DNA of 64,000 nt from Curtobacterium flaccumfaciens UCD-AKU (GTDB taxonomy: Bacteria > Actinomycetota > Actinomycetes > Actinomycetales > Microbacteriaceae), in the NCBI RefSeq assembly GCF_000349565.1, contig NZ_APJN01000047.1, forward strand, positions 1-64,000, in the 5' to 3' direction. The translations under genes were made by a program, and so were the position numbers. The notes beneath the pieces are model-generated. The model ran no database searches and was not told the origin of the DNA. It saw only the letters and a list, made by a program, of their open reading frames with translations. Numbering within the stretch: position 1 is the stretch's first letter; the number at the start of each line of letters is the position of its first letter. Shown here piece after piece: positions 39,138-63,960 of this stretch.

Positions 39138-40325
39138 ATGGCCAACGAACCGATGAACCTTGACCAGGCGCTTCGCGCCTCCTACGCCGATGCCCTCACC
39201 CTCGGGGTGCGCGGCATCGGTGCCGACGCGCTGGCACGTCGCGCGGAAGTTGCACGCGCGGTCCTCGCGGAGCAGTCCCGACGCGTCGACGCCGCCTACC
39301 GTGGAGTGGCCGGCGCGGAGCCGGACGTTCCCGCACTGTTTGGGGCAACGCTCGTGCTGCGGCACGGTGGAGATCTGAACGGAGTGCTCGGGGACCCGAT
39401 GTTCGCTGCCACGCTGCAGCAGCAGATGGGCCTCGGGTACGGGGCCGAGTACGTCAACGACGAAGACGGTGCCCGGTGGGAATCCATCGAACCGACCGCC
39501 GAGGACAACGGGCAGTCGGCCGCGGAAGTGACGCGCATCCGCTCGGCCCTGGCTGAGTTGGGCTCGCTCGACCCGGGCGCACTGCAGGCGGAGACCGCCG
39601 CTGACCGGCTGCCCCTGCAGGAGCGGATGGAGCAGGCGTTCCTCGAGGGATACGGCGCCCGACTCCAGGTCGGCCTCGCTTACGCCGCCGCGGACGACGC
39701 CGCACGTGCGGAGATCGGCTCGAGTGTCCTCGCGGACAAGGTCTCGACCTACGACGACCTCGACAGGATCACGACGACAGTGCTGCGGGAACTGCCGGAC
39801 GTGACGTTCTTCTACGAGGAACTCCTGAACGAACCGCTGTCGCAGAACATGGAGCGGGCGCTGGTGGAAGCAGCGGGGATCGCGGGTCGGTGGTCCGACC
39901 TCGATCCCGCGGTCGACCAGCAGCTCGAGGTCATCGACAGCCGGGCCAAGGAAGTGACCCGTGCGCCCTCCGTGCATGCCGGCGACCCCGCCGAGGCGGA
40001 GATGCGGTACCTCGACCCGGACCTGCAGCGCGCGACGCAGGCGCTGCCGCGGATCGAGCGGGATAACACGGTCCGCGCCGTACGGGCTCAGAGCGCCATC
40101 GCGGCAGAGTCGGGAGCGGAACGCGGCGGCGTTCGCGAACGGATCCAGGGGTGGCGGGACGCCCGCCGCGAGGAAGGCGAGCGCACTGGCGACGACGCAC
40201 AACGGCGCCGAGAGGCATGGGAGCGCGGAAACGGTCGCAGCATGCATGTGACGGGGACGCCGTCGGCCGCGGCGACTGCGGATGTGGTGCCGGCGCCTGC
40301 GCCAGAACGAGGTCTCGGCCGATGA
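39138..40325 (+). CDS. Hypothetical protein encoded next to VirD4, with relaxase-like C-terminal tail
   Basis: Protein of 395 residues, soluble, largely helical, Ala- and Glu-rich, without recognised domains. The C-terminal 45 residues contain RRREAWERGNGR and an Ala/Pro-rich end, closely matching the tail of the relaxase TraA (RRREAWERAHGR) and of the AbiEii-type protein (ARRDSWEQAHGR). It directly precedes VirD4 with an ATGA overlap. A T4SS substrate, chaperone or relaxosome component is the best guess. Confidence 0.6.
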   Translation: MANEPMNLDQALRASYADALTLGVRGIGADALARRAEVARAVLAEQSRRVDAAYRGVAGAEPDVPALFGATLVLRHGGDLNGVLGDPMFAATLQQQMGLGYGAEYVNDEDGARWESIEPTAEDNGQSAAEVTRIRSALAELGSLDPGALQAETAADRLPLQERMEQAFLEGYGARLQVGLAYAAADDAARAEIGSSVLADKVSTYDDLDRITTTVLRELPDVTFFYEELLNEPLSQNMERALVEAAGIAGRWSDLDPAVDQQLEVIDSRAKEVTRAPSVHAGDPAEAEMRYLDPDLQRATQALPRIERDNTVRAVRAQSAIAAESGAERGGVRERIQGWRDARREEGERTGDDAQRRREAWERGNGRSMHVTGTPSAAATADVVPAPAPERGLGR

Positions 40326-46788: not shown

Positions 46789-49700
46789 TCACAGTTCACG
46801 ATCGATACCGCGGGCCGGCGTCGGCGGCAGGTCGCGGGCGGTGCCGGCGTCCTTCGACTGTCCCGTGGACACCTGACGGCCGTGCGCACGCTCCCAAGCC
46901 TCGCGGCGTCGGCGGGTGGCGTCGGAGTCGCGGCCTCGGACCGCGGCGAGGCGGTCTTTCCGTTCTGCGGCCTGCTCACGGAGGATCTGCGACTTATGGG
47001 ACGCGACGACGCGTACCTGGAGATCCCTACCGATGCCGTCGGTGCGGCGGTCGGCCGGGATCGCGTTGATTTCTTCGACGGGTACGTTATAGCGATCGCG
47101 GAAGGTGTCGACCTCGGCCGCGAGGCGAACCCATGCGGCTCGGCGGTCCGGCTCGGTGGGGACCGAGCCGAGCTGCAGGGTCCAGGCCGGCTGCTCCGCC
47201 GCGATCGCTTCGCCGCGTTCTGTGAGGCGAGCACGGAGGTGCTCGTGGCGTTCCTGGAGCTCGTCTCGCCAAGCCGCCGGCAGGTGCCGGGACCGCAGAG
47301 GCGCGGCATCGGCGATCCACCTCGGCACCTCCGGCGCCGCTGCCGGGTGCGGATGCTCCTGCTCCCACTGTTTCGTCAGCGCGGTGATCCGCGCGCCGAG
47401 TACAGCTGGGACGTTATCGATGTCGTCGACGGGTCGTTCGGTCCATGCCCGGTAAAGCACGTCGGCGGGGTCGAGGCCGGCCCGCTCGGCACGGCGCATC
47501 GCGGCGACGGTGACACCCCAGGTGTCCTCACCGCCGAGCCTGTTGGTGACGTCGATGCCGAGGGCCTGTTCCGCGGCCGCGGTGAAGCGGATCCGGTCGG
47601 CCTGCTGGGTGAGGTCCGCGTACTGGTCTGCGAGGGTCACGATGCGGTCCGCGTCGCGCTGGGCGATGCGGAGTTGCTCGTGGGCGGTGAGGTTCGGGTC
47701 GACGTTGCCGGCGATCTTCGCCAGGACGTCGCGCATGTCCTGGCCGGGTTCGGTGATCACCGCGAACGTGTTGCGGTGACGGCCGCGGGTCCCGCCGACG
47801 TAGGCGGCGTTCCGGGACGTGGACACGTCGACCATCTGCCACATCGTGTCGCCAGTGTTGCCCTGCTCCCCGTGGGTGGTGCGGGCGTAGCCGAGCTGCG
47901 TGTGGTCCTTGACGTACTCAGCGGAGAGGCGAAGCTTGCCGCCGTGGCCGGCGTGCACGACATCGAGGGAGCCGTCGTCGTGGACACGCTTCACGGTCCA
48001 CCGGTCGCCGTTCTTCACAAACTCTCGTCCCCGGTGCATGCGCTGCTTGTAGTCGTTCTTCCGCGTCACGATCCGGTCGCCGACGTGCGCGTCAAAGCCG
48101 TCCATGAGGGCTGCGCTGCGGCGCCCGTGGACCTCACCGGTCGTGAATCGGTACGCCTGCGCGCGGGCGTTGAGTTCGGCGATCTGGGCGCGGGTGGGGG
48201 CGGCCATCAGGGCATCGAGACCTTGGTCGATGTCCTGCTGCCAGCCGTTGAAGACGTGGTCGGCCATCTTGTCCGCGTCGCCACCGACAACGCGCCCGTT
48301 GGCAAGGTGCCAGACCCACGGGTCCTGCACCGTCGGGTCGCGCAGGAGGAGGGTCGCGGCGGCTTCGTCGGGGTTGCTGAACCGGTGGAGCTCGTCGAGG
48401 TAGGTAGCCCCGACTTCGTGCTCGAGGAGGCGGAGCATGCCGCCGGAGGCGACGGCGTCGAGCTGCTTGTCGTCACCGATGAACCGCACGTGCGCGCCGG
48501 TGAGCTCCGCGATCCGGACGACCTTGGCGAGGTTCACGGTGCCGGCCATGCCGGCTTCGTCGACAACGATCACATCACCACGGCGGAGGTCGATGTCACC
48601 CGTGATCGACTTCGCCTCGAGCAGCTGTTCAAGGTCACTGCCGACGAGGAACTTGTCGAGGGTGACGGCCTTGATGCCGACGGCGTCGGACATCACCGCG
48701 GCCGCCGCAGCGGACGGGGTCAGCCCGATCATGCGCCCACCCTCCGCTTCAATCGCGCGTGCGGCGACCTTCAATGCGGTCGTCTTCCCGGTACCGGCAG
48801 GTCCGACCCCGACCATGACGCGGACCGGGTCGCACGCGAACGCCGCGGCGAGAGCAGCCTGTCCGGCGTCCAGATGCGCACCGTGCTCGGCTCGCGCGGC
48901 GGCGAACGTTTCGGCGCGGACGGGGCCGAGGGTGCGGTCTTTCGCGGCGTCGAGGATGATCCGCTCCGCGTCGAACACGGCCTGCGATGAGAACACCACG
49001 GCGCCCTTGGAGGCGTACGGGGAGGACCCGTCGCGCATCGCGACGGGCTGGAACGTGCCGTGCGCCGGCGGCGGGGTGAGGCGGATGGAGTGGCCGTCGA
49101 TGACGGTCTTCGTGATGACCGCGGCGCCGGTCTTGCTGTCCAAGCCCGGCATCCCGCGGTGCTCGTTCACCCACTGCTCCGCGGCGATCTGCACGTTGTT
49201 GACACCCCACGTGGACCGGTCCTCGGACACCTTCGCAAGGATCGTCCGTGCGGCGTCCTCCGGGTCGAACGGAGTGTCATAGTCGGAGTTGAGCCCGCGG
49301 CCGAGGAGCGCGCCGACCTCGAGGTCCTGACGCCGGGTGGTCTTCCGCGCGGCCTCGAACCAAGTCTTTGCCACCTCAGCGACGGGGCGGATGTGCTCCT
49401 TCTTCGGCCGGGTCGCGAGGACCGCCTGCTGTGCGATCTTCCGCCTCGTGGCCCGGTCCGGGGAGCGTCCGTGGTCGCGTCGGTAGTCCCGCTCGAGCTC
49501 CGCCGCGACCTTCCGGGAGTCACGGGAACGGGTCGACGATTCGGCGATCAGGTCATCGCTGACGCCAGCGAGCTCCACCACGGGCGGGTCCCCGGCACGG
49601 AGGACACGGGCGCGCGTGGTGGCGCCAGTGAGCTCGCAGACGTAGTCCATGACGGCACGGTTGTGGATCGCCGCGGCGGCCATCGCCTGCCGGTGCAGCA

Positions 49701-50574
49701 GCTTCGAATCCAGCGTCCGCCACTTCCCGTCCGAGCCCAGGACACGGTTCGCGACGACCACGTGATCGTGGAGCTGCGGATCCCCGGAGCGGGAATCGTG
49801 GTGGCGGAACTTCGTCGCGATCAACCCGCCCTCGACGTCGAGCTGACGGACACCGTTCACGCCGGCACGGGTCGCGATCGCGTTCTCCTCCAGCCACGCA
49901 ATCGAGTCCGCAATGGCACGTTCCTGCGCCTGCTCGATCAGCCGCGCGGTCACGTGATCGTCCTGCGCGATCGCCGCAGCCCACGCGATCGACACCGACT
50001 TCGGCGGGGAGAACGTCAGGTCGATACCCGACACGGTGTTCCGCTCCGAGCGGGTCGCGGCGGTGATGAACTTCCCCAGTTCCTCACCGTCCGCAGGCGG
50101 CCGGCCGTTCGCCTCACGGAACGCCTGCGACCCGACAGCGGTCCGCAGCTGCGAGCGTTCCGACGCGTCCGGCTCACGGTGGCGGGTGCGCTCGAAGCGG
50201 TCCTCAGCCTCCATGATCGCGACCGCAAGCTTCGTCGACGACGCCGACATACGGTGCGGCGCCCGACCCAGCCGGGCGTCCTTCTCCGCGTCCTCGTAGC
50301 TCTTCCCGGCCTCCATTGACGCAGCGATCATCGCCTCAGCGTCAGGGTGCAGACCCTCACCGAAGAGGGCCTTCATCTGCGCCTCGGTCACCTCACCGGC
50401 CATGCCGAGCAGGCCGATCCCACCGCCGACCCACTGCCCCGGAGGGTTCCCCTCGACCGTGTAGTAGTCGCCAATCTCGCGGCCCTGCGCACGACGCACA
50501 TCGCCCGTGGCGACCTCCGACGTGTAGTACGTGTACCCGTCACCCGTGGACAGCACATGCAAGCTCATCGTCAT
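46789..50574 (-). CDS. traA: MobF conjugative relaxase-helicase TraA
   Basis: Protein of 1261 residues. The N-terminal relaxase has candidate catalytic tyrosines at 14, 16 and 17 (GDGYTYYTSE), the conserved IDLTFSPPKSVSIAW and the metal-binding His set in KFRHHDSRSGDPQLHDHVVV. The helicase half carries Walker A GPAGTGKTT near 588, VIVVDEAGMAG and FIGDDKQLDAV, typical of RecD-like TraI/TraA helicases. It nicks oriT, unwinds DNA and pilots the strand into the recipient. The C-terminal tail (RRREAWERAHGR, ARDLPPTPAR) recurs in two other plasmid proteins. Start ATG 50574 (GGGGGT upstream); 50568 is possible. Confidence 0.95.
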   Translation of the reverse strand: MTMSLHVLSTGDGYTYYTSEVATGDVRRAQGREIGDYYTVEGNPPGQWVGGGIGLLGMAGEVTEAQMKALFGEGLHPDAEAMIAASMEAGKSYEDAEKDARLGRAPHRMSASSTKLAVAIMEAEDRFERTRHREPDASERSQLRTAVGSQAFREANGRPPADGEELGKFITAATRSERNTVSGIDLTFSPPKSVSIAWAAAIAQDDHVTARLIEQAQERAIADSIAWLEENAIATRAGVNGVRQLDVEGGLIATKFRHHDSRSGDPQLHDHVVVANRVLGSDGKWRTLDSKLLHRQAMAAAAIHNRAVMDYVCELTGATTRARVLRAGDPPVVELAGVSDDLIAESSTRSRDSRKVAAELERDYRRDHGRSPDRATRRKIAQQAVLATRPKKEHIRPVAEVAKTWFEAARKTTRRQDLEVGALLGRGLNSDYDTPFDPEDAARTILAKVSEDRSTWGVNNVQIAAEQWVNEHRGMPGLDSKTGAAVITKTVIDGHSIRLTPPPAHGTFQPVAMRDGSSPYASKGAVVFSSQAVFDAERIILDAAKDRTLGPVRAETFAAARAEHGAHLDAGQAALAAAFACDPVRVMVGVGPAGTGKTTALKVAARAIEAEGGRMIGLTPSAAAAAVMSDAVGIKAVTLDKFLVGSDLEQLLEAKSITGDIDLRRGDVIVVDEAGMAGTVNLAKVVRIAELTGAHVRFIGDDKQLDAVASGGMLRLLEHEVGATYLDELHRFSNPDEAAATLLLRDPTVQDPWVWHLANGRVVGGDADKMADHVFNGWQQDIDQGLDALMAAPTRAQIAELNARAQAYRFTTGEVHGRRSAALMDGFDAHVGDRIVTRKNDYKQRMHRGREFVKNGDRWTVKRVHDDGSLDVVHAGHGGKLRLSAEYVKDHTQLGYARTTHGEQGNTGDTMWQMVDVSTSRNAAYVGGTRGRHRNTFAVITEPGQDMRDVLAKIAGNVDPNLTAHEQLRIAQRDADRIVTLADQYADLTQQADRIRFTAAAEQALGIDVTNRLGGEDTWGVTVAAMRRAERAGLDPADVLYRAWTERPVDDIDNVPAVLGARITALTKQWEQEHPHPAAAPEVPRWIADAAPLRSRHLPAAWRDELQERHEHLRARLTERGEAIAAEQPAWTLQLGSVPTEPDRRAAWVRLAAEVDTFRDRYNVPVEEINAIPADRRTDGIGRDLQVRVVASHKSQILREQAAERKDRLAAVRGRDSDATRRRREAWERAHGRQVSTGQSKDAGTARDLPPTPARGIDREL

Positions 50575-53646: not shown

Positions 53647-53898
53647 CTACCGCGGATCGGTCTGCTCAACAGGGTCTACCGATTCGTCATCGTCGGGGTC
53701 GTCCCAGTGCAGCAGCCGGGTCGACGAGCCTTGGTAGCGGCCCTTGTTCGCATGGATGGCGCAGTCGTGGTTGTCGTGGTCGTACGCAGCCCGGTAGTAC
53801 CGGTCGGCGTCGAAGTCAGCGGCGTTGTACGCGTTCCACGCCGCGTCGACCTCCGCTTGCCGCTCGGCCAAGCGCATCCGCATCCGGGAAGTGCCCAC
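53647..53898 (-). CDS. Hypothetical acidic protein with chimeric start
   Basis: Eighty-three codons from a GTG at 53898. The first 12 codons lie inside the 301-bp direct repeat, and the rest (AERQAEVDAAWNAYNAADFDADRYYRAAYD, then a very acidic tail with DDPDDDESVD) is unique. The original start was probably replaced when the repeat was joined here. Function unknown; small acidic proteins of this kind occur in transfer regions. Confidence 0.45.
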   Translation of the reverse strand: MGTSRMRMRLAERQAEVDAAWNAYNAADFDADRYYRAAYDHDNHDCAIHANKGRYQGSSTRLLHWDDPDDDESVDPVEQTDPR

Positions 53899-54161
53899 CC
53901 AACTGCTGACACTTCTCGATCATCGCCATCGCCTGCTCGACGTCAACGCCTTGCCCCTCACCGATCATCCCCTGATGCTCCCCGGTCCCGATCTGAACTC
54001 ACCGGGCGCCGGCGTACTGGGGGAACATGCGATCCATCGTCGCTTCGTGGCGGGCGGCACGGTCGTCCTCGCCGCGGGTCCGGGAGATCTCCGCGAACGT
54101 CGGACCCGATGCGGTCGGTTCGGCGGGAGCGGGTCGGCGGCACATCTCGGCGTAGTACCGG
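53861..54161. repeat. Direct repeat copy 1 (301 bp)
   Basis: Matches 57899-58199 with four base differences (about 98.7% identity), same orientation. It contains the 3' end of the gene now intact at 58037-58489 and the first part of a following short ORF. It bounds the peptide/nitroreductase/MFS cassette on the left. Confidence 0.95.
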
Positions 54162-54701: not shown

Positions 54702-55607
54702 GTGCATAATCCAGCAGCAATGATGATCTCCCGGGACGGCGAGGATGTCTCCCTGGAGTGGTCGACGGGGGTCGCTGCCCGCTCAATCGACAACACAGAC
54801 TCGCACCTTCGGGACGCGGCGAGGCTTCAAGCTCTGCTTGTGGCGAGCGAAGTCGAAGTACCGGCTCCCCCCGTGATTCCGCAGTCGGGGTATCACCTTG
54901 CGACGGCGGATCATCCGTTTCTTGACATGTCACGGGGTGTTGTGGCTCGAGTTGAGGATGCCCACATCATGGCTGGCTATGCGGCATCGGACGATTATCC
55001 CGCTGTTGAACTCTCGCTCGTGCATGATCGTGTCGTGGACATCGAGGATGCTGCTGACCTGACTCTTGACGAACTCCGCAACTCAGATTTATACCGTTTC
55101 TCCGCGATTGTATCGGGCACGTTTGGCGTCCGGCGCCATCAACCGGCGTACTTCGATCCAATCACGGGGTATCACCAGGTTGAGATCGTGAAGAAATCGA
55201 TCCCGTCTGGTGGTTCGCGACACCCGTCGGAGCTGTTCCTGGAAGTGCTGAGGTCGCCGAAGATGGCCACCGGCACTTGGCACTACAACGCGACCAGGCG
55301 ACAGCTGCAGCGAATCTCATCGAGCACGGCTACAGAGGAAGTGGAAAGCAGCGCCGACTGGGTGGTGCGGACGCACATCGTCTCAGTCGTGCGGCGTGCG
55401 ATGTTCCGGTATCGCGACCCCCGGAGCTTCCGCGCGATCCTCGTCGATGCAGGTCATGCGGATGCGCAGTTTGAGGCGATCGCGAAGTTCTGTAACTGGC
55501 GATATCGCTCGTCGGCGTCGATCGATTTCACGTTCGGCCCCACGGTCGGATTGGCGGGAGACGAGATCCCGCGGTTGGTCACTGGGACCTTGGAGGGGTG
55601 GGTATGA
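54702..55607 (+). CDS. SagB-like nitroreductase-family dehydrogenase, first of two
   Basis: Protein of 301 residues from a GTG at 54702 (ATG at 54720 or 54723 possible). The centre has KSIPSGGSRHPSELFLEV near residue 166, the FMN-binding motif of SagB/McbC-type dehydrogenases (S-G-G-x-R-H-P-x-E), followed by GTWHYNATRRQLQRI. The N-terminal third is specific and unrecognised (RLQALLVASEVEVPAPPVIP). Such enzymes oxidise azoline heterocycles or other peptide positions in RiPPs. The stop overlaps the next ATG (ATGA). No YcaO gene is near, which is unusual. Confidence 0.7.
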   Translation: MHNPAAMMISRDGEDVSLEWSTGVAARSIDNTDSHLRDAARLQALLVASEVEVPAPPVIPQSGYHLATADHPFLDMSRGVVARVEDAHIMAGYAASDDYPAVELSLVHDRVVDIEDAADLTLDELRNSDLYRFSAIVSGTFGVRRHQPAYFDPITGYHQVEIVKKSIPSGGSRHPSELFLEVLRSPKMATGTWHYNATRRQLQRISSSTATEEVESSADWVVRTHIVSVVRRAMFRYRDPRSFRAILVDAGHADAQFEAIAKFCNWRYRSSASIDFTFGPTVGLAGDEIPRLVTGTLEGWV

Positions 55608-56302
55608 CGACCGTCGTCGATCAGCGGGGGTGGAGCGAGGTTCCGGACTTCTGGGATGAGAAGAACTGGGCCAGGCCGTACCATTTTCTCCAGACAGTCA
55701 GCAAGGCGCAAGACGACCAGCCCGCAGTCCCAGAGGAACGCCCGTACCTCACCGATAAAGTCACGTCCGGATTTGCGTACCGTCGAGCGGTCGAGCGGTC
55801 GAGCCTCACCCGGTTAGCCGAGGGAAGCTTCGCTGGAGATGACCTGCAGGCGCTGTTGCGGTGTCTCTACCAAGCGCTCGCCGTTGAGGGGCACTTCGTC
55901 GCCGGTGTTGTCACGGACACGGTTGAAGGGTGGGCTGACGGCTACTGGACCGTCGAGCACGAGCCGCGCCACATCCGAAACTCCCTCGTCGCCGTGGATC
56001 CCGATCAGACCGCACGGATGATTCAAGGTCAGGAGTGGGCGACCGGCCCCGGCGTGATGATCGTCCTGGCGCTGGATTGGGCGCAGGTCCAATCGGCGAA
56101 CCAGGACGTCGATCAAGCGTATGCGGCTGCGCTCATCGCCTGCGGTCGCATCGGGCACGCACTGGTGTTGGAAGGTCAGCACCACGCTCTCCGAGCAAGG
56201 ATGACTCCAGCTGTCCACGAAAGTACAGCGGCCGGTTTGTTCCGTTTTCCGGAACACGTCTCGCCGCTCTACGCGATTCGCCTCGCCAAGCCGAACGGGT
56301 GA
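55604..56302 (+). CDS. Second nitroreductase-like protein of the cassette
   Basis: Protein of 232 residues with a strong ribosome-binding site (GGAGGGG) inside the previous gene. It looks like a divergent nitroreductase half: AYRRAVERSSLTRLAEGSF (R-R-S-x-x-x-F-type start), LQALLRCLYQALAVEGHF, GVMIVLALDWAQVQSANQ, YAAALIACGRIGHALVLEG and FPEHVSPLYAIRLAKPNG. The last motif resembles the end of SagB-type proteins. It probably forms a heterodimer with the previous enzyme. The stop overlaps the MFS start (GTGA). Confidence 0.6.
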   Translation: MTTVVDQRGWSEVPDFWDEKNWARPYHFLQTVSKAQDDQPAVPEERPYLTDKVTSGFAYRRAVERSSLTRLAEGSFAGDDLQALLRCLYQALAVEGHFVAGVVTDTVEGWADGYWTVEHEPRHIRNSLVAVDPDQTARMIQGQEWATGPGVMIVLALDWAQVQSANQDVDQAYAAALIACGRIGHALVLEGQHHALRARMTPAVHESTAAGLFRFPEHVSPLYAIRLAKPNG

Positions 56303-57561
56303 CAACGGCGAGGGCCGTTCCCGGCATCACGAAACTCTTCATCAACCGTTCGTTCGGGTTGCTCTGGAGTGCGCAGGCGTTCTCCTCGTTCGGCGAGTAC
56401 GTGATGGCCTCCACCGTGACGGTGTGGCTTGCGACGAGCCTTGCCGCCACGGACCCGCTGCTGCCCGTGTACATCGGCGCTGTGGTCGCTGCCGCTGCGG
56501 TTCCGCGGGTGATCCTCGCCCCGTTCGCCGGCGTTCTCGTCGACCGCTGGACGGCACGAACAGTCATGCTCACCGCTGATGTGGTCCGCGCGGCACTGTA
56601 CGTTCCGCTCCTGGCTGCGATAGCCCTGCTGGAGACCACGGCGCTGCCTGTGGCGCTCATACTCATGCAATTGCTCGTGAGCACTGTGTCGCAGTTCTTC
56701 GACCCGGCACGGAGCGCCTTGATCCAGGCTGTCGTCCCGACTGAGCAGCGGGCAGGAGCAGCCGGGCGGTCAACGTTCTCGAGCATGGGGGCTGGAATCA
56801 TCGCGACCATGGCCGGCCCGGCATTGTTCGCGGCTGTTGGCCCCCGTCCGGCACTCATCATCGATGCGTCGTCGTTCTTGGTCTCGGCCATGCTTGTCGG
56901 TCTGGTTCGAGAACGAAAAGTGCACAGCTCGATGGCGCGCACCCACTACTGGCGCGAGCTCACCGCGGGCATCCTCATCGCGTGGCGGTCCCGCAAGCTG
57001 CGGCTCCTGCTGGTCGGGATGGCTGCGTACGGAGTGTCTCTCGGCGTCAACAACTCGACGTTGTCGCTCTTCGCGCTGAAGACGGTACGTCTCTCCGCCG
57101 AGCAGTACGGAATCGTGTCAGCGATGTTCTCCGTCGGCGGGCTCCTCGGCGCGTTCGTCGCACCATCGATCGTCCGTCGCCTGCGTCCCGAGCGTGCGCT
57201 TGCCATCGCGCTCCTGCTTCTCGCCACGACCTACTTCACGTACTCGACGGTACGATCGTTCACCCCCGCGATCCTGCTCATGCTCCTCGCCGGACTGCTC
57301 TTCTCGGTCTACATCGTGGCGCAGGGGCCGATCCTGCAAGCCGAAGTGCCATCCGGGGCGATGGGGCGCGTGTCATCGCTGACCGCACCAGTCCTCGCGA
57401 TCTCGTCCCTCGTCGCCACCGCAGTAACGTCCAACACGCTCAGCGCCGTTCAGGCATCTACCGCGTCCGCTATGGGCTTCCCCGCGGCGATCGCAATAGC
57501 CGCCATCGTCATGGGGGCAGCGAGCGTTGTCCTCGTCATCGGCACGCGGCGCAGCATCTGA
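56299..57561 (+). CDS. MFS exporter of the cassette
   Basis: Protein of 420 residues from the GTG at 56299. Twelve hydrophobic segments, with RSFGLLWSAQAFSSFGEYVM at the start, AGVLVDRWTARTVML (motif A, D-R) near residue 73, and DPARSALIQAVVPTEQRAGA near 135, which is typical of the bacteriocin/macrolide-type MFS_3 exporters. Coupled translation with the nitroreductases suggests that it exports their product. An outward pump for a peptide or self-protection is likely. Confidence 0.85.
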   Translation: MTTARAVPGITKLFINRSFGLLWSAQAFSSFGEYVMASTVTVWLATSLAATDPLLPVYIGAVVAAAAVPRVILAPFAGVLVDRWTARTVMLTADVVRAALYVPLLAAIALLETTALPVALILMQLLVSTVSQFFDPARSALIQAVVPTEQRAGAAGRSTFSSMGAGIIATMAGPALFAAVGPRPALIIDASSFLVSAMLVGLVRERKVHSSMARTHYWRELTAGILIAWRSRKLRLLLVGMAAYGVSLGVNNSTLSLFALKTVRLSAEQYGIVSAMFSVGGLLGAFVAPSIVRRLRPERALAIALLLLATTYFTYSTVRSFTPAILLMLLAGLLFSVYIVAQGPILQAEVPSGAMGRVSSLTAPVLAISSLVATAVTSNTLSAVQASTASAMGFPAAIAIAAIVMGAASVVLVIGTRRSI

Positions 57562-57898: not shown

Positions 57899-58006
57899 CG
57901 CTCGGCCAAGCGCATCCGCATCCGGGAAGTGCCCACCCAACTGCTGACACTTCTCGATCATCGCCATCGCCTGCTCGACGTCAACGCCTTGCCCCTCACC
58001 GATCAT
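57821..58006 (-). CDS. Truncated short ORF at the repeat edge
   Basis: ORF of 61 codons. Its first 36 codons (starting MIGEGQGVDVEQAMAMIEK, rich in Met and acidic residues) lie in the direct repeat and also occur at 53968 in copy 1. Beyond the repeat boundary at 57899 the sequence changes, so both copies are truncated. Probably a gene fragment. Confidence 0.35.
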   Translation of the reverse strand: MIGEGQGVDVEQAMAMIEKCQQLGGHFPDADALGRARRMVSRTKEASGGHRPAVAGSRTRA

Positions 58007-58199
58007 CCCCTGATGCTCCCCGGTCCCGATCTGAACTCACCGGGCGCCGGCGTACTGGGGGAACATGCGGTCCATCGTCGCTTCGTGGCGGGTGGCGCGG
58101 TCGTCCTCGCCGCGGGTCCGGGAGATCTCCGCGAACGTCGGACCCGATGCGGTCGGTTCGGCGGGAGCGGGTCGGCGGCTCATCTCGGCGTAGTACCGG
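57899..58199. repeat. Direct repeat copy 2 (301 bp)
   Basis: The second copy of the segment at 53861-54161, same orientation, 4038 bp apart. Here it continues without a break into the intact 58037-58489 gene, so this is probably the original copy. Confidence 0.95.
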
Positions 58200-58489
58200 T
58201 CGGCGTCGTGCTCGGCCTGCTCGAGGCGGGCGCGCAGTTCGAGGACCTCGGTCATGAGCTCCGGCGCGGCCGCGGCGAACCCGACCAGGTAGCCGGCCTC
58301 CCAGACCTGCCGCTGCTCGTCGGTGAGTTCCCACTCGCGGACGTGCTCGGTCGGGTCGGCGGTGGCGGCGTCGATGGCTCGGAACGCTGCGACGGTGTCG
58401 CCGGCGTAGAGCTCGTCGATGGCAGCGCGGGTCTCGGGCTGGATGACGTCGGGGCGGATGGTGGTCGGACGCTCGAGGGTCATCGTCAT
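58037..58489 (-). CDS. Hypothetical protein, 150 aa
   Basis: Protein of 150 residues from the ATG at 58489, which overlaps the stop of the redoxin gene (TGATG); an ATG at 58483 is also possible. N-terminus MTMTLERPTTIRPDVI, a helical centre (ELYAGDTVAAFRAIDAATAD, WEAGYLVGFAAAAPELMTEVLELRA) and a coiled-coil stretch that ends in a polar tail with RTRGEDDRATRHEATMDRMF. The last 54 codons are duplicated at 53999-54161. No family recognised. Coupled to the redoxin gene. Confidence 0.6.
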   Translation of the reverse strand: MTMTLERPTTIRPDVIQPETRAAIDELYAGDTVAAFRAIDAATADPTEHVREWELTDEQRQVWEAGYLVGFAAAAPELMTEVLELRARLEQAEHDADRYYAEMSRRPAPAEPTASGPTFAEISRTRGEDDRATRHEATMDRMFPQYAGAR

Positions 58490-58737
58490 CACGCGGCCGT
58501 GCTCGAGGCGAGTTCGCCGATCTTGTCGGGGCGGAACCCGCTCCAGGAGCCGGTCTCCGTGTCGGTGACGACGATGGGGGCGTTCATGCCGAGGGTGGTC
58601 TTCCACTCCTCGATCTGCGCCTGGTCGACGTCGTCGAGGATCGCCTCGGTGTACTCGATGCCGGCGGAGGTGAGGGCACGCTCGGTGGCGAGGCACATGC
58701 CGCAGAAACCGGACTTGGTGTAAACCGTGATGCTCAT
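58489..58737 (-). CDS. nrdH: NrdH-like glutaredoxin
   Basis: Protein of 82 residues from the ATG at 58737, preceded by CGGAAGGTGA. Thioredoxin fold: SITVYTKSGFCGMC with the redox pair C12-x-x-C15, a helix TERALTSAGIEYTEAIL, the cis-Pro motif NAPIVVTD near 52 and a C-terminal GFRPDKIGEL typical of NrdH/mycoredoxin proteins. It gives electrons to ribonucleotide reductase or another plasmid partner; no nrd genes are in the window. First gene of a short operon. Confidence 0.9.
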   Translation of the reverse strand: MSITVYTKSGFCGMCLATERALTSAGIEYTEAILDDVDQAQIEEWKTTLGMNAPIVVTDTETGSWSGFRPDKIGELASSTAA

Positions 58738-59645: not shown

Positions 59646-60197
59646 CTACTGACGTGCCGGTTCCGGGGTGAGGTCGGTGTGCTGCAGCAGGAACCGGACC
59701 GCGGACCAGGCCGAGAGTTGCGGCCGGTCCCAGGCGTGCTGTCCGTCGTTGAACTCGCAGCCCTGCCCGCCTGTGATGTCGCGACCCTCGACGAGGACGC
59801 CGGCCTCGTCGCAAAGGACCAGGTGCGGCATGTTGCTGCGTTCGCGGATGATCCGCTGGGCTTCGAGGTTCCCTGCCGGGGTGAAGTCGCGGGAAGTGTT
59901 GATGCCGTCGCAGCCGTACTGCACTTCGGTCGGCATCTCCCCCGGTTTCCCGGCAACCAGGGTGGTGCCGTGGTCGGTGTAGGTGTCGGTCATGCCGTCG
60001 AACGAGCGGCCCTCGAACTGACGGCACACGTCATCGACCTGCGCGGACGTGGGGCCGTCCTCGTGGTGGACGTTGATCCACGCCGAAGCGGTCCCGGTCG
60101 AGCAGCGCACCGAGAACTTCACGCCCGGGAACCGGGTGCGGAGCTCCTTGCGGAGCAGGGCGGCCACCTGCTTGGTGGGGACAATGGTGGTAGTCAT
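59646..60197 (-). CDS. LPD29-domain protein
   Basis: Protein of 183 residues from the ATG at 60197 with GGAAGGAACC upstream. The first part is an LPD29 (large polyvalent protein-associated) domain: TKQVAALLRKELRTRFPGVKF, VRCSTGTASAWINVHHEDGP, DDVCRQFEGRSFDGMTD, YGCDGINTSRDFT. The second part is variable. Domains of this family occur in phage and plasmid polyvalent proteins that enter the recipient; function unknown. It is separated from the next upstream gene by a GC-rich hairpin. Confidence 0.75.
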   Translation of the reverse strand: MTTTIVPTKQVAALLRKELRTRFPGVKFSVRCSTGTASAWINVHHEDGPTSAQVDDVCRQFEGRSFDGMTDTYTDHGTTLVAGKPGEMPTEVQYGCDGINTSRDFTPAGNLEAQRIIRERSNMPHLVLCDEAGVLVEGRDITGGQGCEFNDGQHAWDRPQLSAWSAVRFLLQHTDLTPEPARQ

Positions 60198-60291: not shown

Positions 60292-60492
60292 TTAGTCCTC
60301 GTCGCGGACGAACGTGTCCACAAACGTCGTGAACTGCGGGCCGGGGATCGTCGCCGTGTGGGTGAGGCGGTATCCCTGCTTGGTGCGCGATCGAAGGTCC
60401 GTGTCTCGTTCGCCGATCTTGCTCAACTGGCGGGGAATGTGGTCCTCGTCCACGACCGGAACAATGGTGGTGACTGTGTCGATGTGCTGCAT
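60292..60492 (-). CDS. Small hypothetical protein downstream of a structured RNA
   Basis: Sixty-six residues from the ATG at 60492; the leader has GAGAGGGAGAGGAAAA just before it. Composition suggests two strands and a helix (TVTTIVPVVDEDHIP, RQLSKIGERD, KQGYRLTHTATIPG) with an acidic end. No family recognised. The mRNA leader is one of two homologous structured RNAs of this window, and the tail of that RNA supplies the ribosome-binding site. Confidence 0.6.
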   Translation of the reverse strand: MQHIDTVTTIVPVVDEDHIPRQLSKIGERDTDLRSRTKQGYRLTHTATIPGPQFTTFVDTFVRDED

Positions 60493-60854
60493 TGGGTTTT
60501 CCTCTCCCTCTCGTTTTTTGCCGTGAAGGCGACTTGTCGCCGCTAGGACGGGAGGGTGTAGTGCAACCCGAAGGGCGGAGGGGGAGAGAATTTCGGCGCG
60601 AAATAAGGGAGCGAAGCGACCGCGTGCCGAAAATCTCGGAGGAGCCCGCGGCTTGCCGCTTGCGCGGAGCCCGGACGTCCGTACGCTGCCGAAGGCTTCA
60701 CGGCAAAGAAACGGGCCGCAGGCCCAGCAGTGCCGGCGAAGCCGGTTCCACCCGGAGCGAAGCGACTCCCGGCCTCCGGCCGGAAGCTCTGGACGCACCT
60801 GTCTCCGGCGGGTCCGGCAGGGCGGGTACCGGTGCTGCTGGCAGCATCCGGGGC
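60493..60854 (-). ncRNA. Structured RNA, copy 1 (leader of the 66-aa gene)
   Basis: Minus-strand RNA with nested pairing: closing stem TTTGCCGTGAAG (60517-60528) / CTTCACGGCAAA (60696-60707); second stem GGACG (60546-60550) / CGTCC (60676-60680); inner hairpin GAGA.TTTCGGC (60586-60597) / GCCGAAA.TCTC (60626-60637); further hairpins GGGCCgcaGGCCC and GCCGGcgaaGCCGG near 60713-60745. The same layout occurs at 63424-63720 with many compensatory changes. Exact ends are not known. Confidence 0.75.
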
Positions 60855-61205
60855 ATGAGATCTCGCCGCGGCGCCCGGAAGGGCCGGCCCAGGAACCAGG
60901 ACAACCCGATTGACGTCCTGCTCGAGCAGGACGACACCACTCCCCCGGCATCCGCACCCGCCGACGTCGACCACGTCCTGGGTCGGTCGATCGAGGTGCT
61001 GCACTCGTTCTGGGTGCAGCCGGCGGACCTGGTGCCCTGCGACGTTGCCGGGTGCACCGATCCGGCGGAACCGGAGGCGTGGGAACCGGTCGACCTCGAC
61101 ACGGGCGATGAGCTGCCCGGCCGGTTCTGCGACGAGCATCAGCTTGCCTGGATCACCCGCCCCCGTGAGACGACGTCGACCACCGGGGATCTCGTCTCCC
61201 CCTGA
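60855..61205 (+). CDS. Hypothetical zinc-finger-like protein
   Basis: Protein of 116 residues from the ATG at 60855, the only + strand gene in this part. A basic start (RSRRGARKGRPRNQ), an acidic stretch, LGRSIEVLHSFWVQPADLVPCDVAGC near residue 55 and GRFCDEHQLAW near 92 form a probable C-x4-C...C-x2-H zinc site. It starts inside or next to the 5' part of the minus-strand structured RNA, so the two may interfere. No clear ribosome-binding site. Confidence 0.5.
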   Translation: MRSRRGARKGRPRNQDNPIDVLLEQDDTTPPASAPADVDHVLGRSIEVLHSFWVQPADLVPCDVAGCTDPAEPEAWEPVDLDTGDELPGRFCDEHQLAWITRPRETTSTTGDLVSP

Positions 61206-61410
61206 GCGGCCTTGATCGCGGCGCCGCTCTGCGGTGTCGTCGCGCTGCGAGCTCCGTCGAGCAGCGCCGAGGTCGGGAGGAGGCGGAGCCTCTTGCCGCG
61301 GCGGCGGAGCCGTCGCGCAGCCCACGGACACCAGGACGGCCCGGGATGGGACACAAACCGGTGCCGGGTGGGCGTGGGGGCCGCTGGCTGCGACCCCCAC
61401 GCCGGTTCAC
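61206..61410. other. Intergenic region with a hairpin
   Basis: Between converging genes. GGCGTGGGGG (61371-61380) / CCCCCACGCC (61394-61403) pairs perfectly with a 13-base loop and lies 8 bases after the ParB-like stop on the minus strand; it may act as a terminator although no T-run follows. Confidence 0.5.
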
Positions 61411-62922
61411 CTACTCGGCAGCCGTGTCCCCTTCGGCGTCCTGGTCGGCGTTCTCGGTGGCCTCGGTGGCCTCGGTGGCCTCGGTGGCCTCGGCTACGGC
61501 CGGGGTCTCGTCGTCGGCTGATGCTGCGCCGGTGACGATCTGCTCGACATGGGAGAGCGTGTAGCCCCAAGCGACCAACTGGGTGAGGTACGGCACCGTT
61601 TCGGCGGCGGGCGTGCTCCACCCGTACCGACCCACGGCCGACTCGACTTCGGCCAAGGCGAACGCGAACGCGACGTGTCCGGCCTTCCCGGGCCGCTTCC
61701 GCGCCCACTCGGCCGCGTCGGCGTCGTCCGGGACGCCGAGCAGGTCGGCCGCGGTGAGGCGCTGGCCGTAGTAGTCCCGCATCGGCGTCAGCAGCGCCGC
61801 AGCGGTCCACCGGGCCGCGTCCTTCGGGAGCGTCTTCGACCCGACGAGTCCGGCGAGCCAGACCCGACGAACCTCCCGTGCGGCAGTCCACTCGTCCTGC
61901 AGGCGGGCGTCCCGCTCACGGCGGGCCTTCGCGGCCTCGGCCTCGGCGGCACGCTCGGCTTCTTCCTCCGGCGTCAACTCGGGTGCGGGGCGGTCGTAGA
62001 AGTGCCGCGCCGTGTGCTGCTCCGGGGTGATGCACACCGCCGTCACGGACGCTGCGCCGCCGATGGGCTGCACCAGCACCGCGTGGCCCTCGCAGGCGGT
62101 GTGGGCCTCCGGGTCGATGGGAGCGAGCATGGCTCGCGGGTCGTCCTCGGGGACCGGCTCGTCGGAGAGGCTGTCCAGCCGCTTCCACCCGAGCGCGGTG
62201 CCGTCGTCCACGACGGCGACACCCTGCTCCCGGTACTGGTCTGCCACCTTCACGGCTTCCGCTTCCGCGATCTTCCGGTTCCGGTGCTGCTGGGCGACGA
62301 ACGGCAGTTCGTCGTCGTAGCCCTCGCTGATGTACTCGTTCAGTTCCGCCGTCGCGTCCTCGTCGCCCTCGAACTCGGCCAGCAGCAGGGCCGCGTCGAA
62401 CGACACCTGCCGGTCCACCACCGCGGCGGTCGCGGCCTCCGACTTCGCCACGGTGAGGGTCGCCTGCACCTGCTCCTTGTCGGTGCCGGTTTCGCGGGCG
62501 ATCCCGGCGACGGAGAGTCCGGCGAGTTCCAACTGCCGGTAAGCGTTCAGCCGGTCCCCGTCCGTCAGCGCAGTACGGCGCTCGTTGGCGACCAACTGCT
62601 CCGCGATCCGCTGGGCGGGGGTGTCGCCACGCTCGGTGACGAACACGGGAACGGTCGTTCCCGCCTCGCGGGCGGCGAGGACGCGCATCTGCCCGTCACG
62701 GACCACCACGGCCCCGTCCGAGTTCCGGTAGCCGATGGTCGGCAGGAGCACCCCGTGGCGCTTCACGGATGCGAGGAACGCGGGGTCGAGGTCGGCCGCG
62801 GTGCGGACGTTGTCCTCGATCACGGCCTCAGCGGCCGGGATGGTGACCAGGTCCACGCCGACCGCGTCAGCGGTGTCAGCGTGGTCGGTGATGGTGGTCT
62901 GGGTGTTCTCGGTCATGGTCAT
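61411..62922 (-). CDS. ParB/Srx-fold protein (KorB-like), plasmid
   Basis: Protein of 503 residues from the ATG at 62922. The ParB N-terminal domain has VIEDNVRTAADLDPAFLASVKRHG near 35, VVVRDGQMRVLAAREAG near 73 (the G-x-R-R-like CTP/nuclease motif, here G-Q-M-R) and AEQLVANERRTALTDGDRLNAYRQL. A helix-turn-helix follows: LSVAGIARETGTDKEQVQATL near 135. The rest is helical with a long acidic/Glu-Ala stretch (about 320-345) and ends in repeated TEATEA. It is unlinked to the ParA genes, so it may be a transfer or copy regulator, not the partition protein. Confidence 0.8.
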   Translation of the reverse strand: MTMTENTQTTITDHADTADAVGVDLVTIPAAEAVIEDNVRTAADLDPAFLASVKRHGVLLPTIGYRNSDGAVVVRDGQMRVLAAREAGTTVPVFVTERGDTPAQRIAEQLVANERRTALTDGDRLNAYRQLELAGLSVAGIARETGTDKEQVQATLTVAKSEAATAAVVDRQVSFDAALLLAEFEGDEDATAELNEYISEGYDDELPFVAQQHRNRKIAEAEAVKVADQYREQGVAVVDDGTALGWKRLDSLSDEPVPEDDPRAMLAPIDPEAHTACEGHAVLVQPIGGAASVTAVCITPEQHTARHFYDRPAPELTPEEEAERAAEAEAAKARRERDARLQDEWTAAREVRRVWLAGLVGSKTLPKDAARWTAAALLTPMRDYYGQRLTAADLLGVPDDADAAEWARKRPGKAGHVAFAFALAEVESAVGRYGWSTPAAETVPYLTQLVAWGYTLSHVEQIVTGAASADDETPAVAEATEATEATEATENADQDAEGDTAAE

Positions 62923-63027
62923 GTTGTTTGCTACGCTTTCCGGTAGTGACCGGGTGCGGGTCCTGGCAATTAAGGGTTGTCGGGAACTCCGCACCCGGTC
63001 TTTCCTTATGGGTGGGACTACTGGGTG

Positions 63028-63423
63028 TTACTGCTGGCGGAACACTGCGGACAGTGCTTCCGCCCGGGTGAGCGCCGCACGGGCGTGCCGGAAGGCGCGC
63101 ATGACGGCCGTGTACTGATCCGGCGACAGCGACCGGGTGTCCCCGGCTTCGTCGTAGGTCAGGAACAGGACCGTCCCGAACAGCGGCGACGCCGCCCGGG
63201 AACGGCCGAGGGCGACCGCTGCGACGGTGGCGAGGTCGTTGCGCTCCCCCGCGTACAAGCCCTCGTCATCGATCCACGCATCGATCCGGCCGTCAAGGCG
63301 AACCACGTCCACCAGGCGGCACCCGATCTGCTCCCGCGTGCCCTGCAGGGTCGACTGCGCCGCGTTCACGACGACGCCTTCAACCGCACCGCCTGCGGTC
63401 GCTCGAATACCCATCAACTTCAT
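63028..63423 (-). CDS. DUF3846 protein
   Basis: Protein of 131 residues from the ATG at 63423 behind GGAAGAAGGAA; an ATG at codon 4 is also possible. DUF3846 pattern: QIGCRLVDVVRLDGRIDAWIDDEGLYAGERND near residue 32, then LFGTVLFLTYDEAGDTRSLSPDQ. These short proteins are frequent on actinobacterial plasmids and phages; function unknown. Its mRNA leader is the second copy of the structured RNA. Confidence 0.85.
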   Translation of the reverse strand: MKLMGIRATAGGAVEGVVVNAAQSTLQGTREQIGCRLVDVVRLDGRIDAWIDDEGLYAGERNDLATVAAVALGRSRAASPLFGTVLFLTYDEAGDTRSLSPDQYTAVMRAFRHARAALTRAEALSAVFRQQ

Positions 63424-63720
63424 TTCCTTCTTCCTCTCCCTTTCGTTGTTTGCCCGGGAAGGCACGTAGTGCCGATAGGACGAGGAGCCGGGGTGCAAGC
63501 CCAAAGCGGCGACGCTCCGAGAAGTTTCGACCGGCGCCGTCCATTGACGGAGGAGATGAGCACGACGGCGCCGGTCGAAAGTTCTCGCGTGCGGCGGTGG
63601 CGACGGCTTGCGGCCCGGAACCTCGTCCGTACAATCGCCGAAGGCTTCCCGGGCAAACAACGAACCCCTTGGGGTTCGACAAGCACTGGCCGGCTTGCCG
63701 GCTCCCCTCAGATAAGGACA
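63424..63720 (-). ncRNA. Structured RNA, copy 2 (leader of the DUF3846 gene)
   Basis: Minus-strand RNA with the same architecture as copy 1: closing stem GTTTGCCCGGGAAG (63448-63461) / its complement (63645-63658); second stem GGACGAGG (63478-63485) / CCTCGTCC (63621-63628); inner 22-bp hairpin 63519-63541 / 63564-63586 with one mismatch; apical hairpins GAACCCCttGGGGTTC (63662-63677) and GCCGGCttGCCGGC (63689-63702). The 3' end carries the ribosome-binding site of the DUF3846 gene. Confidence 0.8.
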
Positions 63721-63960
63721 GCCCGCCGAAGGCGGCCCGCCCAGACAGAACAGGCCGCCGCCGGCGGTCCGCTGAGATCTCCCGTGTTCGAGGAGCTCGC
63801 CGGCGCGCAGAGGCCAGCGAACGTGAAGCGGCCCCGGCCTGTTGGGGGGAACAGACCGGGGCCGGCTGCAGCTCGAGCGAATTGGGGGGCTGCTCGAGCT
63901 GCGGGCGCCCGAAGCCACTGGGGGGAATGGTCCGGACGCAGACCACCACGGTACGCACGG
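63721..63960 (-). ncRNA. 5' extension of structured RNA copy 2 with C6-loop hairpins
   Basis: The same non-coding stretch continues with hairpins at 63722-63742 (CCGCC...GGCGG-type) and then three stems whose loops, on the minus strand, show CCCCCC: 63830-63863 (stem about 13 bp), 63868-63902 (11 bp, GCAGCTCGAGC) and 63915-63930 (weak). No protein-like frame is present. The right limit is outside or near the window edge. Confidence 0.5.

Follow-up and report, generated by a model that had tools for sequence, protein, structure and literature searches.

Folded single-stranded DNA that is read by an RNA polymerase, as we propose here, is known from the ssoA and ssoU single-strand origins of rolling-circle plasmids, but these serve priming and are not known to stand one per gene ahead of a start codon. 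The promoters of the phage N4 virion RNA polymerase are likewise small hairpins of single-stranded DNA with three-base loops, used by a phage polymerase and not known to have -35 and -10 boxes of the sigma-A type. Also close to the elements described below are the Frpo/ssi sequences: according to the available sections of two reports, single-stranded DNA (ssDNA) promoters were shown in the E. coli F plasmid (PMC9849209), where a folded strand in the leading region rebuilds a -35 and a -10 box ahead of genes such as ssb, and where two copies have been described (PMC9849209; PMC11541004). Thousands of conjugative elements were reported to carry Frpo-like sequences, and because the same report, in the part available, also admits candidates of merely distant similarity, we did not treat homology as required for the Frpo/ssi class (PMC11541004). 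The EGeRS1 elements of pLS20-family Bacillus plasmids likewise occur in several structured copies per plasmid, each just ahead of the ribosome binding site of ardC or of a different establishment operon, but differ in size (420-750 bp); in the available text, their authors found EGeRS1-B to lack a constitutive promoter, report that the strand transferred is the non-template one, and give arguments against an ssDNA promoter (PMC8708921).

The window analyzed here is a stretch of 64,000 nucleotides of Curtobacterium flaccumfaciens UCD-AKU (contig NZ_APJN01000047.1, positions 1 to 64,000), in which a sequence-only reading had described two homologous structured elements ahead of two plasmid genes (E1 and E2; Table 1). 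This description was confirmed: the copies match at 81% over 57 nt (E 1.7e-5), and the strings quoted for them are present, namely the closing stems TTTGCCGTGAAG/CTTCACGGCAAA in one copy and TTTGCCCGGGAAG/CTTCCCGGGCAAA in the other, the second stems GGACG/CGTCC and GGACGAGG/CCTCGTCC, a GAGA-x-TTTCG hairpin with one non-pairing position, the shared strings GAAGCCTTCGGC and GTACGGACG, and AACGA(G/A)AGGGAGAGGAA ahead of the ATG in both copies. The closing stem (P1) is real but longer than first given (median 18 bp in 119 relatives), and the original outer limits also took in short plus-strand hairpins that lie outside it. We read GGGAGC-GAA-GCGACC in the apical hairpin P4 of E1 as a tandem G·A plus a GNA loop.

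Table 1. Features of the two elements and their surroundings (positions in the window)
Feature	Position	Strand	Remarks
Element E1	60493..60713	+	R1 match 60491-60707; layout-scan hit; template strand of minus-strand gene 60292-60492; putative ssDNA promoter
E1 -35 box TTGCGC	60660..60665	+	non-template arm of folded strand
E1 -10 box TACGCT	60682..60687	+	16 nt past -35
E1 P1 5' arm	60512..60529	+	template arm; continues outward into gene
E1 P1 3' arm	60696..60713	+	
E1 P2 mini-hairpin GCC-GAA-GGC	60688..60696	+	C(GAA)G loop
E1 P6 mini-hairpin	60529..60540	+	at junction
E1 P4 apical hairpin (module A)	60586..60637	+	AAATAA bulge; GGGAGC-GAA-GCGACC; conserved mismatch
E1 GTGCAA	60561..60566	+	tentative -35 duplex partner
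E1 gene, ribosome binding site region AGGGAGAGGAA	60499..60509	-	
E1 gene, start codon ATG	60492-60490	-	
Extra C(GNA)G mini-hairpins outside E1 P1	60716..60745	+	loops at 60718, 60738
Element E2	63425..63662	+	second copy, ssDNA fold; R1 match 63423-63656; layout-scan hit
E2 -35 box TTGCGG	63608..63613	+	
E2 -10 box TACAAT	63630..63635	+	16 nt past -35
E2 P1 5' arm	63444..63462	+	
E2 P1 3' arm	63645..63662	+	
E2 apical hairpin	63519..63586	+	
E2 P6 mini-hairpin GGCAC-GTA-GTGCC	63461..63473	+	C(GTA)G loop
E2 gene, ribosome binding site region AGGGAGAGGAA	63431..63441	-	
E2 gene, start codon ATG	63423-63421	-	
Similar C(GNA)G mini-hairpin outside E2	63728	+	
Gene behind E1	60292..60492	-	66 aa; unmatched in Pfam at E 0.01
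Gene behind E2, DUF3846 protein	63028..63423	-	131 aa; PF12957, 42 bits
Downstream leading-type gene, LPD29 domain protein	59646..60197	-	PF18847
Downstream leading-type gene, glutaredoxin-like protein	58489..58737	-	PF00462
MobF/TrwC relaxase, same plasmid	46789..50574	-	same strand as element-led genes, which point towards it

Relatives were collected with a model of 20 pairs covering the outer stem and two hairpins (R1), which serves for finding relatives and is not a proof of structure. Its searches gave 94 and 100 matches, of which 131 were taken forward once antisense shadows, matches to the inner part only, contig-end cuts and repeated places had been dropped, and 125 of these parsed as distinct elements; blastn returned 89 plasmid records. 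Four genomes matched in one search, one of them the window's own and the other three only at inner model positions 50-153. Counts on 102 relatives refer to those scoring above 60, and counts on 83 to elements left after greedy removal of near-identical ones. Start codons were chosen by preference for ATG, for a ribosome site and for short distance, and 120 of the 125 elements received one (112 ATG); P1 and a start codon could be scored together in 119, with a median of 21 nt from P1 arm to start codon. The claimed covariation recurs on this wider basis, as compensatory changes in the closing stem across the 102 relatives; a mutual-information ranking of the 102 aligned elements mixes subfamilies and carries no weight in our conclusions. 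The family carries two alternative apical modules and clusters of GNA mini-hairpins. No Rfam family reaches its gathering score in the window, and across 60400-63900 the three matches up to E 5 fall on neither E1 nor E2. A phage-type element, as had been suggested, was rejected: a search of 50,697 phage records with E1 gave nothing at E 0.1, the module A pattern gave no match in viral contigs, and none of seven stretches found with a P2/P3 pattern matched R1 at E 0.01.

The sequence-only reading was right in seeing a repeated, structurally conserved family placed as gene leaders and lacking an Rfam match, but it took the folded molecule to be RNA on the minus strand. Such an RNA leader, controlling how the gene behind it is transcribed or translated, would fit the immediate placement ahead of the ribosome site, the P1 covariation and the sense strand of E2, which as RNA folds 8.7 s.d. 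below dinucleotide shuffles; that of E1 lies only 1.5 s.d. below, with 17 of 200 shuffles equally good. The character of the fold argues otherwise. G·U pairs are the signature of RNA helices, and acceptor stems of 21 distinct tRNAs, taken as a yardstick, contain 140 Watson-Crick pairs, 6 G·U, 0 A·C and 1 other. A cis-regulatory RNA would tolerate G·U above A·C on the transcribed strand, and the elements do not: among 1x1 mismatches within 4+4 bp helices of the 125 elements, the sense strand has 49 A·C and 11 G·U (weighted 29.2 and 11.0, against 5.8 and 5.2 in shuffles), part of the A·C excess coming from the A/T-rich end of P1 and one inherited P4 site. In the 83 non-redundant elements, each taken with 150 nt upstream, the template strand has 154 GNA triloops and the sense strand 8, compared with 63 and 43 on the two strands of coding controls, whereas GNRA loops (11 and 7) and cUNCGg loops (0 and 3) are few on either strand. 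With DNA parameters, stability favours the template strand in 79 of 83 elements (46 of 80 coding controls), and even with RNA parameters the template (plus) strand folds better in 76 of 83. The fold is optimised on the plus (template) strand, as DNA. On this mismatch, loop and fold-strand evidence, together with the missing Rfam match, we rejected an RNA leader or riboswitch as very improbable; the proposed plasmid riboregulator is better named a plasmid single-stranded-DNA promoter. More generally, strand biases of this kind, in GNA loops and in A·C versus G·U mismatches, would provide a sequence test for folded DNA against folded RNA.

Within the plus-strand fold, both window copies contain a sigma-A-type promoter motif. 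The exact pattern TTGN3-N14..19-TANNNT occurs in the template-strand 3' part, directly ahead of the closing stem, in 44 of 83 elements (73/125 across all elements), compared with a mean of 0.9/83 and a maximum of 3/83 in 200 shuffles and with 0/83 in the sense 3' part; the final 75 sense-strand nucleotides are depleted of TANNNT (2 vs 44.9). Where the pattern is exact, the spacer is 15-16 in 43/44, and the -10 box ends 20-23 nt from the element end in 44/44. It is missing in the other 39/83, and the count rises to 51/83 if the first -10 base, at its fixed place, may be any letter. Elements of one subfamily, which have an inserted hairpin, read TACGAG or TACGAC, several divergent groups are off the pattern, and a copy on the Curtobacterium plasmid pW21, 95.7% identical to E1, reads TGCGCT without the key -10 A. 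P2 and P6 lie between the -10 box and P1, which counts against the promoter reading, and the proposed partner of the -35 duplex reaches a best score of 6.1/9 versus 5.8 in shuffles, its outer pair not being significant (p 0.14). The same boxes also read outward in double-stranded form, and could belong to an ordinary plus-strand promoter for a divergent gene or an antisense RNA, the inverted repeat next to it being unrelated. The upstream neighbour is divergent at 13 of 34 annotated elements but co-directional at 21 (a hand tally that includes partial matches), and such a promoter would leave unexplained the second P1 arm 132-178 nt off, the short distance to the led gene and the strand bias of the loops; we regard it as highly unlikely.

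Scanning for the whole layout in the 64-kb window returned two hits, E1 and E2, with none on the other strand and 0.4 per strand in shuffled sequence. In 409 kb from 15 actinobacterial plasmids the scan gave 9 vs 0 hits by strand, 8 of the 9 being elements, and was silent at 9 of 15 loci despite elements there. In 20.5 kb of F it gave 2 vs 0 by strand, and in its strict form it missed Frpo1 and Frpo2; pLS20 had one and two hits on its two strands, so the scan is less specific in AT-rich DNA. A search of genome contigs for the promoter plus P2 found 54 loci, from which 43 distinct hits were used, 42 of them with enough flank; 40 of these 42 have a P1 partner at at least 12/18, and 38 have a start codon within 80 nt.

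The genes led by these elements are of the kind found in leading regions, with relatives directly preceding genes for ArdC, glutaredoxin, ParB-like, DUF3846 and DprA proteins. Among 16 plasmids examined, mobC or the relaxase could be located in 13 (one labelled linear), and in all 13 it lies on one strand with the led genes. An oriT nick sought by eye upstream of mobF was not found, so we infer the transferred strand, which would be the plus strand, from the layout. TTGGCA...TACTCT upstream of mobF looks like a mobF promoter.

Both window copies resemble Frpo in that -35 and -10 boxes are rebuilt in the fold and oriented outward into the gene, and in that the structure is selected on the ssDNA of the template strand. 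We consider it probable that each element acts as an ssDNA promoter of the Frpo/ssi class. Conjugation would bring the plus strand, the template for the led gene, into the recipient as a single strand, which would fold so that P1 (~18 bp) closes a junction of the P2 and P6 mini-hairpins, an inner helix and the apical hairpin. The folded 3' side would then act as the non-template strand carrying the -35 and -10 boxes, and in our pairing the first two -10 bases stand opposite mismatches, as a possible ready-opened bubble. RNA polymerase, if it recognizes this structure, would start near P1 and exit its base along the 5' arm, and the product would be a short-leader mRNA with the ribosome site directly after P1. 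Second-strand synthesis would abolish the promoter, so that the led genes would be expressed early and briefly, and protective genes would be turned on upon plasmid entry into a new cell. Alternatively, the elements might be single-strand initiation sites (sso/ssi-like) that mainly prime second-strand DNA synthesis, gene placement being secondary. Such a role agrees with a single-stranded structure on the presumed transferred strand and with module B, in which GCGAAAGC occurs and which is found again in leading regions of proteobacteria, and the title of the Frpo paper, as given in the reference list of PMC11541004, names both transcription and primer synthesis. Priming alone, however, needs no copy per gene at a median of 21 nt from the start codon; we judge it unlikely as the main function, and as a second role it is compatible with an ssDNA promoter.

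We found no ssDNA promoters in actinobacteria described in open-access PMC literature, and the principle known from the E. coli F plasmid most likely appears here as a variant. The elements differ from Frpo in phylum, in the extra P2/P6 junction hairpins, in the clusters of GNA mini-hairpins and in the two alternative apical modules; R1 reached a best E of 3.4 on the F leading region, with no overall similarity to Frpo. Membership in EGeRS1 was rejected on sequence similarity: on 49 kb of pLS20 the best R1 match (E 0.45) lies outside the EGeRS1 stretch, and blastn gave one 17-nt match (40024-40040). EGeRS1 also has few three-base loops. If our reading is true, conjugative plasmids of actinobacteria, among them those of the plant-associated Curtobacterium and Clavibacter and of Cutibacterium from skin, have the same early-expression switch, the genes after an element offer a route to establishment and anti-defence genes, and the transferred strand can be deduced from sequence. 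We further speculate, tentatively and with more doubt than confidence, that leading regions of conjugative plasmids across bacterial phyla use a modular grammar of folded ssDNA, in which a promoter base that stays constant, made up of -35, opened -10, exit stem and gene, bears exchangeable apical hairpins as caps; structured DNA, rather than RNA or protein, would then be the ancient regulator of establishment. The cap GGAATA...ATATGCCGCGAAAGC, which actinobacterial, burkholderial and enterobacterial plasmids share, would in that case be recognised by a host factor that is itself conserved. One apical hairpin module is also present in proteobacterial leading regions, and a hairpin module of 25-27 nt is the only piece shared with another F leader. 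Ahead of the F antirestriction gene, the strand opposing the genes carries TTGCAT-N15-TAAGAT with a 20-bp stem directly after it.

We found that the two elements of the window, E1 and E2, each of which leads a minus-strand gene, are confirmed as structured elements: all strings and stems of the sequence-only reading are present in the sequence, and no Rfam family reached its gathering score in the window (three Rfam matches up to an E-value of 5 were obtained, none overlapping E1 or E2). The element occurs at just these two sites of the 3.7-Mb genome, both on one contig (C37, 72,325 bp). The same reading had taken the elements for minus-strand RNAs. The corresponding RNA fold stands out for the second copy, at 8.7 s.d. 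below shuffled sequences, and less so for the first, at 1.5 s.d. We replaced the RNA reading with one of folded single-stranded DNA (ssDNA) of the plus strand, based on the strand bias of GNA loops, the excess of A·C over G·U and the fold energies. We infer that the elements probably act as plus-strand ssDNA promoters. Such promoters are already known; the elements would be an actinobacterial variant.

The putative promoter boxes are TTGCGC-N16-TACGCT in E1 and TTGCGG-N16-TACAAT in E2. Across the family, an exact TTGN3-N14..19-TANNNT motif lies in the 3' part of the template strand (the plus strand in the window) in 44 out of 83 elements, compared to a mean of 0.9 and a maximum of 3 of 83 in 200 shuffles, and in the 3' part of the sense strand in none of the 83. 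Of these 44 motifs, 36 have a spacer of 16 and 7 one of 15, and the end of the -10 box lies 20-23 nt from the element end in all 44. When any first -10 base is allowed at the fixed place, the count rises to 51 out of 83; among all elements, 73 out of 125 carry an exact motif. The most frequent -10 forms are TATGCT, TACGCT, and TACAAT, with a counter-example in the pW21 copy, which is 95.7% identical to E1 and has TGCGCT. The closing stem, P1, follows directly after the motif, and the median distance between the end of its far arm and the start codon is 21 nt (119 out of 125). TANNNT is scarce in the sense DNA adjoining the gene (2 vs 44.9 expected), a stretch that is also constrained by structure.

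Mismatches and loops bear on which strand folds, and as which molecule. Where the sense strand has an A·C mismatch, its complement has G·T. With a pair scoring that favoured neither G·U nor A·C, P1 in 102 elements comprised 1634 Watson-Crick pairs, 43 A·C, 5 G·U, and 39 others; the inner nine pairs of this stem gave 13 A·C versus 4 G·U. Single mismatches within 4+4 bp helices of 125 elements were A·C in 49 instances and G·U in 11; weighted for relatedness, mismatches came to 29.2 and 11.0 (5.8 and 5.2 in shuffles). The RNA yardstick is the opposite: among 147 pairs in the acceptor stems of tRNAs (21, taken from related genomes), 6 are G·U and none is A·C. Because the A·C excess stems partly from the A/T-rich outer P1 and from one inherited site in the apical hairpin P4 (module A), we give more weight to the loops. 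In 83 non-redundant elements plus 150 nt upstream, perfect hairpins with three-base GNA loops number 154 on the template strand and 8 on the sense strand (71 and 1 when the upstream 150 nt are excluded; 63 and 43 in coding controls). The C-G-closed loops are GCA (55), GAA (30), GTA (28), and GGA (19), and hyper-stable DNA mini-hairpins of the C(GNA)G type are known from work on d(GCGAAGC). RNA-type loops on the two strands number 11 and 7 (GNRA) and 0 and 3 (cUNCGg). The template-strand P4 apex is GGGAGC-GNA-GCGACC, whose pairing reads as tandem G·A pairs, which in the sense strand would correspond to C·U. Moreover, 79 out of 83 elements fold more stably on the template strand with DNA parameters, and 76 do so with RNA parameters, compared to 46 out of 80 coding controls (DNA parameters).

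In the F plasmid model, the folded incoming strand recreates a promoter that is gone once the second strand is made (PMC9849209). Likewise, the incoming strand would fold here and rebuild the promoter, which second-strand synthesis would then remove; from the pairing, the first two -10 bases would face mismatches and may offer a ready-opened start. The weakest steps of this proposal are the -35 duplex and the transferred-strand assignment. A survey lists 13,089 promoters homologous to the F ssDNA promoter Frpo in 6,006 conjugative elements, plus further candidates, and the string 'actino' is absent from its available main text (PMC11541004). The closest Gram-positive analogue that we encountered is EGeRS1 of Bacillus, whose mechanism is described as unknown (PMC8708921). 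Our searches of open-access PMC papers brought up no description of an actinobacterial ssDNA promoter. The EGeRS1 before ardC of pLS20 has C(TTTA)G loops opposite the led-gene strand. TTTA is a DNA-type loop.

A whole-layout scan picked out two places in the window, E1 and E2, each on the plus strand; the minus strand gave nothing (ten shuffles gave 0.4 per strand). Across 409 kb taken from 15 actinobacterial plasmids, the scan found nine places on the template strand, eight of them elements, and none on the other strand; in 9 of the 15 it found nothing, though elements are present there. F gave two places on the strand opposite the leading genes and none on the other; one of them, with an exit stem of 20 bp, precedes the antirestriction gene. 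The stretches before ssb (Frpo2) and before the gene at 64032 (Frpo1) were missed. Two leading-type regions, from Burkholderia and Serratia, gave one template-strand match each and none on the other strand, and pLS20 gave 1 and 2 on its two strands. On the F strand opposite the leading genes, TTGCAT-N15-TAACGT with a stem lies at a place with no listed gene directly behind.

Searching with E1 by blastn, we found 140 places in 89 plasmid records and no match in phage records. The hosts are actinobacteria in all 60 records listed of the 89. By genus, the 89 include 25 from Clavibacter, 20 from Curtobacterium, and 8 from Microbacterium, followed by Glutamicibacter, Cutibacterium, Arthrobacter, Dietzia, and others. 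A covariance model (R1, 17 sequences) matched 15 out of 66 sampled genomes of the genus, 44 out of 299 of the family, 17 out of 396 of the order, and 4 out of 396 of the phylum, each count including the window's own genome and some matches being incomplete; 131 parsed matches yielded 125 distinct elements. Several elements per plasmid are common (three in Curtobacterium G07, five full-length in Arthrobacter pAD51). Elements also occur on contigs of several megabases, such as G1068:C1 and others of chromosome size, probably within integrated elements. A second search of the genome contig collection, with the promoter plus the junction mini-hairpin P2, gave 54 stretches, all from Actinomycetota except two MAGs labelled Planctomycetota and Deinococci. 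Among 42 distinct matches with enough flank, 40 have a P1 partner arm at 132-178 nt agreeing in at least 12 of 18 positions (mean 14.9 vs 10.1 shuffled), and 38 have a start codon at most 80 nt beyond it, which in 32 is an ATG accompanied by a ribosome site. There is overlap between these genomes and the R1 set, so the check provides independence from the search method but none from the family.

The led genes are of leading-region types (ArdC-like, ParB-like, DUF3846, DprA, and glutaredoxin), with SSB and LPD29 genes farther along. F resembles the element plasmids in having antirestriction, SSB, ParB-like, and PsiB genes, then traM-traJ, in the same order. Among 16 plasmids, MOBP and MOBF, mobC/relaxase was located in 13 (not in L012, L054, and L055), always on the strand of the element-led genes, and in 12 downstream of the element-led genes, counted round the circle where needed; the remaining record is labelled linear and has mobC ahead of the element. 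In the window, the led genes point towards the relaxase. An ORF block flanked by a 301-bp direct repeat (98.7% identical) separates the leading-type genes from the relaxase. A distinct inverted repeat, GACCGGGTGCGG/CCGCACCCGGTC, precedes an ORF and has no element-model match. The actinobacterial 6C RNA (RF01066) scores 35.2 bits, below its gathering score of 47, in a match truncated where the searched stretch ends.

Module A is present in many elements, and a smaller group (Cutibacterium, Georgenia, Xylanimonas, and others) carries module B, with GGAATACC...GGATATGCCGCGAAAGC on the template strand. Module B matches F over 25/27 nt (E 7e-5, 69.5 kb searched), upstream of a DNA methylase gene and inside an annotated hypothetical gene, and Burkholderia glumae at 88% over 59 nt (E 8e-11, plasmid collection), in a leading-type region where a DNA methyltransferase gene follows after about 93 nt. 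For the Serratia match, the E-value is 2. Enterobacterial plasmid matches, among those listed, are mostly about 25 nt (E 0.1-2), so that their weight rests on position. Module B (template GGAATA...ATATGCCGCGAAAGC) occurs both in elements of actinobacteria and in proteobacterial leaders that precede DNA methyltransferase genes, and its pattern also occurs in 21 stretches of viral-collection contigs (L235-L255).

Coordinates of the elements and of other features (window positions unless a record is named)
Feature	Position	Strand	Remark
E1	60493-60713	+	element
E1 putative promoter boxes	60660-60687	+	
E2	63425-63662	+	element
E2 putative promoter boxes	63608-63635	+	
MobF/TrwC relaxase	46789-50574	-	
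Direct repeat	53861-54161 / 57899-58199		
ORF block	54702-57561		
Inverted repeat	~62950-63005		before ORF 61411-62919
RF01066	63823-63900	-	sub-threshold
Element on chromosome-size contig	G1068:C1 2805000-2811000		
F, TTGCAT-N15-TAACGT	about 52700 (L145 about 4701)		opposite leading genes
pLS20 EGeRS1	L144 45760-46613		before ardC
Module B site, F plasmid	L145 6000-6026	template	sequence match
Module B site	L256 9001-9058	template	sequence match
Module B site	L257 5001-5054	template	sequence match
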